NCBI RefSeq assembly: GCF_027023985.1
Contig: NZ_JALVTW010000033.1
Span: forward strand, 62,001 to 126,000
Source: Persephonella sp.
GTDB lineage: Bacteria > Aquificota > Aquificia > Aquificales > Hydrogenothermaceae
Direction of reading: 5' to 3'
DNA length: 64,000 nucleotides
Of the stretch, positions 22,250 to 52,135 are shown in pieces. A model generated the notes under the pieces. The model was not told where the DNA came from and did no database searches. It saw only the letters and a list, made by a program, of their open reading frames with translations. The position numbers and the translations under genes are program-made. Every line of letters begins with the position of its first letter. The first letter of the stretch is position 1.

Positions 22250-22281
22250 TATAATAATTGCAAAATATTTGCATTAGCAAT
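22250..22281 (+). promoter_or_regulatory. -10 box and tandem TTGCAAA-type operator of the TonB-dependent receptor
   Basis: TATAAT (22250-22255) is followed by TTGCAAAATATTTGCA (22258-22273): two TTGCA units 11 bases apart that also form a TGCAAA-ATA-TTTGCA inverted repeat, and then TTGC-ATTA-GCAA (22270-22281). The elements cover the expected transcription start. A near copy lies at the metF promoter (51210-51228). No cobalamin-riboswitch leader is present: only about 40 bases separate the -10 box from the gene. Confidence 0.55.
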
Positions 22282-24118: not shown

Positions 24119-25003
<885 letters not shown>

Positions 25004-51209: not shown

Positions 51210-51250
51210 TTTGCAAATGATTTGCAAAATTTCTCTGACTCTTTTATACT
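51210..51250 (+). promoter_or_regulatory. metF promoter with tandem TTTGCAAA operator (leaderless)
   Basis: TTGCAA (51222-51227), 17 bases, TATACT (51245-51250), then six bases and the metF ATG. Two copies of the 8-base palindrome TTTGCAAA (51210-51217 and 51221-51228), 11 bases apart, cover the -35 box. The same element, with two differences over 18 bases, lies at the BtuB-like receptor promoter. Confidence 0.6.
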
Positions 51251-51256
51251 GTTTTT

Positions 51257-52135
51257 ATGAAGATATCAGAAATCCTTAAGCAGGTTAAAAGAAGTATTTC
51301 TTTTGAGTTTTTCCCTCCTAAAAGTGCAGAGGGTGAAGAAGCTTTATTTAAAACAATCAAAGAGCTTGTGTTTATAAATCCAACTTTTGTTTCTATTACA
51401 TACGGGGCAGGTGGAACTACAAGAGAAAGGACAATAAGAGTTGTCAAAAAGATTCATACCCAGACAAATCTGACTGTAATGGCACACCAGACCTGTATAG
51501 GTCATACCAGAAAAGAAATTATAGATATCCTAAGCCAATATAAAGAAATAGGCGTTCAAAATGTCCTTGCATTAAGGGGAGATATTCCGCAGGGACAGGA
51601 GGAAACATTTGTTTTTCCTCCTGATGGTTGTAGATATGCAAGCGAACTTGTTTCACTGATAAGAGAAACATTTGGGGACTGGTTTAGTATAGGAGTTGCA
51701 GCATATCCGGAAGGGCATCCTGAAAGCCCAGATTTAGATACGGATATATACTACTTTAAAAAGAAAGTGGAAGCTGGAGCAGAATTTGCCATAACCCAGA
51801 TGTTCTTTGACAACAGATATTTTTATAACTATATTGAAAAACTACAGAAAGAAGGTGTTGATATCCCTGTTATCCCGGGAATTATGCCTATTACAAACTT
51901 TAAACAGATTAAAAAATTTGCAGATATGTGCGGCGCAACAATACCCGGGGAATTAATCCAAAAACTGCAAGCTGTGGCAGATAAACCTGAAGAAATTGAA
52001 AAAATAGGAATAGACTATGCTGTTAAACAATGTGAAGACCTCCTTAAAAATGGTGTGAAAGGCCTTCACTTTTATACCCTTAACAAATCAAAGGCTACTA
52101 TAGAGATATACAACCGAATTAAGGAGCTTATATAA
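51257..52135 (+). CDS. metF: Methylenetetrahydrofolate reductase
   Basis: FAD enzyme reducing methylene-THF to methyl-THF, the methyl donor for methionine synthase. 292 residues with [13 protein letters not shown] (catalytic Glu), [39 protein letters not shown] and [10 protein letters not shown], all in the usual TIM-barrel order. The ATG at 51257 has no ribosome-binding site and lies six bases after the -10 box. The shared operator with a BtuB-like gene suits a pathway whose next enzyme (MetH) uses cobalamin. Confidence 0.97.

Follow-up and report, generated by a model that had tools for sequence, protein, structure and literature searches.

In a 64,000-nucleotide stretch of a Persephonella sp. 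genome (hereafter the window), the region upstream of metF and the region upstream of a gene for a BtuB-like receptor carry similar sequences built on the core TTGCA. This raises the question of whether one transcription factor governs both genes and, if so, which protein it is and what signal it answers. The original prediction described a tandem TTGCAAA element, assigned it to a transcription factor joining metF and the receptor in a B12/methionine regulon, and proposed that this regulator replaces the cobalamin riboswitch.

The shared palindrome

We found both sequences upstream of metF and the receptor gene as predicted, with TTGCA cores spaced 11 bp apart at each and 14 of 18 positions identical. 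The notion of a tandem was only partly right: the cores are indeed repeated, but the conserved unit is a palindrome rather than a simple tandem, and because TTGCAA is self-complementary, two TTGCAA cores 11 bp apart also make an inverted repeat. Our motif search left the three central positions of the palindrome unconstrained. Among 63 oriented sites, position 8 was T in 53, position 10 was A in 57, and position 9 was random, which gives the consensus WTGCAAAT-N-ATTTGCAW, a Fur-type 7-1-7 box. On this pattern, the element is a predicted palindromic operator of the Fur type.

It could be argued that the resemblance is a chance outcome of AT-rich promoter hexamers, given that TTGCAA is plausible as a -35 box and that a two-mismatch scan of the window returned 23 matches against 17 expected, which is no excess. 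The exact sites contradict this reading. The exact palindrome, WTGCAAANNNTTTGCAW, has three copies in the 1.90-Mb genome, at metF, at the BtuB-like receptor gene and in the region that separates metE from a divergently transcribed Fur-family gene, which we named furC (this last copy lies outside the window), whereas base composition predicts about 0.09 copies and the reversed pattern has none. Across 37 Hydrogenothermaceae genomes, we counted 81 exact sites versus 3 matches to the reversed control. Most of these sites lie upstream of metE/furC, metF or the receptor gene, with conserved layouts, in eight genera and beside receptors down to 42% identical. Motif frequency is thus far above chance, the site is present at the metF and receptor orthologues of relatives, and site counts and recurrence together refute the chance explanation, to which we assign virtually no probability. 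One site with a single mismatch (C8:4833) falls within galT and was set aside as a chance match.

Target genes and B12 supply

Table 1. Features of the metF and receptor loci and of furC, with the evidence for each
Feature	Position	Strand	Evidence
Receptor promoter -10 box, TATAAT	22250..22255	+	Sequence; most relatives have a TATAAT-like box directly next to the site
Putative FurC operator of the receptor gene, TTGCAAAATATTTGCAT, over the likely transcription start	22258..22274	.	Conserved at receptor orthologues
BtuB-like TonB-dependent cobalamin receptor, 606 aa	22295..24115	+	Profile, PDB, MetH co-occurrence
Six-helix membrane protein, 192 aa, directly 3' of the receptor gene	24119..24697	+	Adjoins receptor in 17 loci
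Putative FurC operator of metF, TTGCAAATGATTTGCAA, palindrome	51211..51227	.	Sequence, genome-wide search
metF -35 hexamer TTGCAA, inside the operator	51222..51227	+	Sequence; kept in relatives
metF -10 hexamer TATACT	51245..51250	+	Sequence; layout conserved
metF, methylenetetrahydrofolate reductase, 292 aa	51257..52135	+	PF02219 371 bits; TIGR00676 above cut-off
furC, Fur-family protein, 135 aa	G000 contig C30:34805-35209, outside the window	-	Divergent from metE

At metF, the second core of the operator doubles as the -35 hexamer and is separated from TATACT by a 17-bp spacer (Table 1), and relatives share this operator layout in 12 of the 14 distinct contexts of metF. Sites at metF are confined to some genera, and several genera have none. 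The metF start codon lies about 7 nucleotides past TATACT (51245-51257) and has no ribosome-binding site, an arrangement conserved in about a dozen relatives; given how closely the start codon follows the -10 box, the metF mRNA is probably leaderless.

The receptor operator begins 3 bases past TATAAT. The best NCBIfam model for the receptor is TonB-B12 (TIGR01779), at 248 bits under a cut-off of 599.7, and its best PDB relatives are BtuB structures (5e-45). In 23 near-complete genomes the receptor and MetH co-occur perfectly, 14 genomes having both and 9 having neither, with the limit that these genomes are related to each other and the counts are not independent. Because BtuB is nearest and the co-occurrence with MetH is perfect, the protein is best read as a B12 receptor serving MetH. 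The membrane protein encoded directly 3' of it, which probably shares its operon, had no match in Pfam and PDB sequence searches; its predicted structure (pLDDT 79.6) is similar to one half of an MFS transporter, and its best fold matches are all MFS-type transporters, weakly so (E of at least 0.02). Since a search of the window's genome gave no match to a FecCD/BtuC permease, we regard this protein as a candidate inner-membrane importer of cobalamin.

The cobalamin riboswitch (RF00174) was found in 0 of 41 family genomes, in agreement with its predicted absence, and a search of the window and of the metE and metH loci gave none either. The family genomes that we searched contained no CobS. 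The organisms concerned are B12 auxotrophs.

The gene beside the third exact copy, metE, encodes the cobalamin-independent methionine synthase (TIGR01371, 1054 bits). In the window's genome, metE has a second copy of the site, with one mismatch, 42 bp closer to the gene. This spacing recurs in 20 distinct contexts and is 41 bp in two more; at four helical turns, it suggests two dimers acting together. In most genomes furC and metE are transcribed divergently, and the site lies in the intervening region. In G033 (L047:2101-3402), a 434-aa ORF, which by eye resembles a transposon protein of the TnpB type, stands between furC and metE.

Upstream of metH, we found no site within two mismatches in 15 of the 16 genomes read. 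The exception is G005, where furC is divergent from metH, a site is present at metH, and metE has a site also; a two-mismatch metH match in G015 was rejected, as it lies inside the gene rather than upstream. In five genomes (G013, G015, G008, G009 and G022) furC was not seen beside metE, and there it has no site of its own. Autoregulation of furC is therefore optional rather than general, and the site is a feature of its target genes.

FurC as the candidate binder and its signal

The original prediction proposed a ribbon-helix-helix or ArsR-type regulator, a guess that proved wrong in that the candidate is a Fur-family protein. FurC is the third Fur paralogue of the window's genome, next to Fur on contig C15 and PerR on contig C16, and orthologues occur on named contigs of Persephonella, Sulfurihydrogenibium and other Hydrogenothermaceae among the 41 family genomes searched. 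Its FUR domain (PF01475) scores 91.4 bits (cut-off 23.1). The closest solved sequence relatives are Bacillus subtilis PerR (2FE3) and Campylobacter jejuni Fur (4ETS), at 2e-19 to 3e-19; both are also among the top Foldseek matches of a FurC model of moderate confidence (pLDDT 68.8), which comprise Fur, PerR and Zur structures (best E 3.5e-10). FurC belongs to the Fur family by descent, and we do not class it as Fur, PerR, Zur or Nur.

Compared with PerR and Fur, FurC has kept the structural zinc site but replaced every one of the five regulatory ligands known from PerR. The Cys4 motif CxxC...CxxC (C88, C91, C128 and C131) is invariant in 17 orthologues, whereas the B. subtilis PerR ligands H37, D85, H91, H93 and D104 have become P, A/G, K, Y and I, respectively. 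The His motif that precedes CxxC reads KKNYLVC in FurC, and the segment KKNYLVCEKCGKIVIIDNCPF is nearly invariant across the FurC proteins of the family, while nearly all Fur relatives elsewhere retain the His motif at this place and none was found beside metE. Because the regulatory metal site has been lost, FurC has probably also given up the usual mode of sensing iron, peroxide or nickel.

To which protein the box belongs is indicated by the genomes that have no FurC. Three near-complete genomes (G001, G032 and G040) and two partial ones (G030 and G031) have no FurC, and all five have metE and other Fur paralogues. They contain zero sites genome-wide, and the best match upstream of their metE genes has 4 to 5 mismatches, which is the chance level. 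In G007, which is 83% complete, we found two metE sites and did not find FurC. The reading that Fur (C15) or PerR (C16) binds the element instead could draw on the Fur type of the box and on related, seemingly PerR-controlled boxes elsewhere in the order, but it is hard to reconcile with genomes in which other Fur paralogues are present, FurC is missing and the metE promoters have no box, and we consider it very improbable. As the predicted binder of the element, FurC is well supported. The idea of one transcription-factor site linking metF and a cobalamin-type receptor holds across the family, with metE as the core target.

The same palindrome also occurs in settings that we do not count as part of the FurC regulon. 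In a second family of the order (L049, L050, L051, L052, L054 and L095) it precedes rubrerythrin and peroxiredoxin genes, where it probably marks a PerR-type regulon, and in several genomes of a third family (L084, L085, L092, L093 and L094) it precedes leuA-like genes, trpE-like genes or both, the leuA-like genes being, by eye, of the 2-isopropylmalate synthase type. Both sets were rejected as regulon members. In G019, a repeat array on a 164-kb contig, possibly a plasmid, contains two copies (L116:2503-2642) and precedes a ParM-like gene; these copies are apparently unrelated to the regulon. Finally, G008 and G009 (L059, L060 and L097-L100) have several near-identical copies of TTGCAAATAGTTTGCATTACTAAAATC with no labelled gene nearby, and these copies are probably a repeat element.

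In our proposed mechanism, a FurC dimer would bind WTGCAAAT-N-ATTTGCAW and repress metE, metF and btuB. At the receptor gene, and for the metE-proximal copy, the site adjoins or overlaps the -10 box and the likely start of transcription, and at metF it overlies the -35 box; all three promoter layouts predict repression. The regulon would have metE at its core, would include the BtuB-like receptor and its membrane partner only where MetH is present, and would extend to metF in some genera and to metH in one genome. FurC itself would no longer respond to iron, peroxide or nickel in the usual manner. Its signal would instead come from the methionine cycle, as SAM, methionine or homocysteine, and it would release its targets once too little methionine is made, for instance when MetH can no longer rely on imported B12. 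We consider this account, a FurC operator with methionine-cycle-released repression of metE, metF and btuB, to be probable. The broader formulation, a Fur-fold repressor freed from metal sensing that has a methionine-cycle metabolite or cobalamin as its direct signal and takes on the tasks of MetJ/MetR and the riboswitch in Hydrogenothermaceae, seems to us somewhat more likely true than false.

Alternatively, FurC may be a cobalamin sensor that represses metE, metF and btuB as long as the cell imports ample B12, and so replaces the riboswitch. The targets would fit such a role by following riboswitch logic, with metE and btuB controlled and metH mostly not (15 of 16 without a site), as would the B12 auxotrophy of hosts that have no riboswitch and the single cluster formed by the receptor gene, its membrane partner, furC and metE in G016, G036 and Sulfurihydrogenibium L169. 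Nevertheless, six near-complete genomes (G010, G011, G012, G034, G035 and G037) keep FurC and a metE site although they have no MetH, BtuB or CobS; among these MetH-less genomes, the metE site is exact in G010, G012 and others and has one mismatch in G034. Given these genomes, B12 could hardly be the common signal. In addition, metH itself has a site in G005, and FurC contains no recognised B12-binding domain. Control by B12 in place of the riboswitch is possible, but we do not favour it and rate cobalamin sensing as unlikely. Because FurC and the metE site persist in the six genomes without MetH and BtuB, a methionine-cycle metabolite is the favoured effector, and such a signal would account for all of the targets, by analogy with MetJ.

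It has also to be considered that FurC may have remained a metalloregulator whose site for zinc, nickel or iron was rebuilt, and that the regulon answers metal or oxidative stress. The invariant residues Cys100 and His120 of FurC might together provide a new site for a metal, the box equals the Nur consensus tTGCaa-N5-ttGCAA (PMC3919588), and similar boxes precede the rubrerythrin and peroxiredoxin genes of related Aquificota. Moreover, PerR regulates metQIN in Streptococcus suis (PMC3458967), and MetE needs zinc (PMC539065). On the other hand, all of the common regulatory-site ligands are gone, which is unusual among the relatives that we found, the targets are neither metal-homeostasis nor oxidative-stress genes, and cobalt has no obvious role in organisms without cobalamin synthesis. 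We find a metal-responsive FurC improbable, and we retain the methionine-cycle signal as our working model.

Relation to known regulatory systems

Most descriptions of Fur-family proteins present them as sensors of metals or peroxide. In the present case, a single Fur clade has lost its sensor residues, has kept the rest of the sensor half almost invariant, and has methionine synthesis and B12 uptake as its putative targets, which together would make up a small, conserved methionine/B12 regulon governed by a derived member of the Fur family. In the open-access literature that we searched, this regulon is not described, nor is any Fur-family regulator of metE, metF or btuB. If our model is true, a metalloregulator fold has been turned to a metabolic signal, and the management of MetE and MetH without a riboswitch in deep-branching thermophiles that import B12 would be explained, and FurC, its operator and the list of possible ligands would offer ready material to test.

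The cobalamin riboswitch RF00174 controls btuB and metE in many bacteria that use B12, so its targets are like those of FurC, although the riboswitch itself is missing from the family. Among protein regulators, the core regulon of MetJ includes metE, metF, metH and btuB, and metR forms a divergon with metE in Proteobacteria that resembles the furC/metE arrangement (PMC4239095). MetJ and MetR nevertheless belong to protein families different from that of FurC, and the FurC regulon is much smaller. Nur, the nickel-responsive regulator of Streptomyces, has both the Fur fold and the operator consensus in common with FurC, but its His-rich sensor motif is absent from FurC, and it targets nickel transport and superoxide dismutase genes rather than metE, metF and the receptor gene. 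The PerR protein of S. suis is like FurC in being a Fur-family protein set over methionine genes, in its case the methionine-acquisition operon; however, it senses peroxide and governs a mixed stress regulon, whereas FurC is apparently dedicated to methionine and B12.
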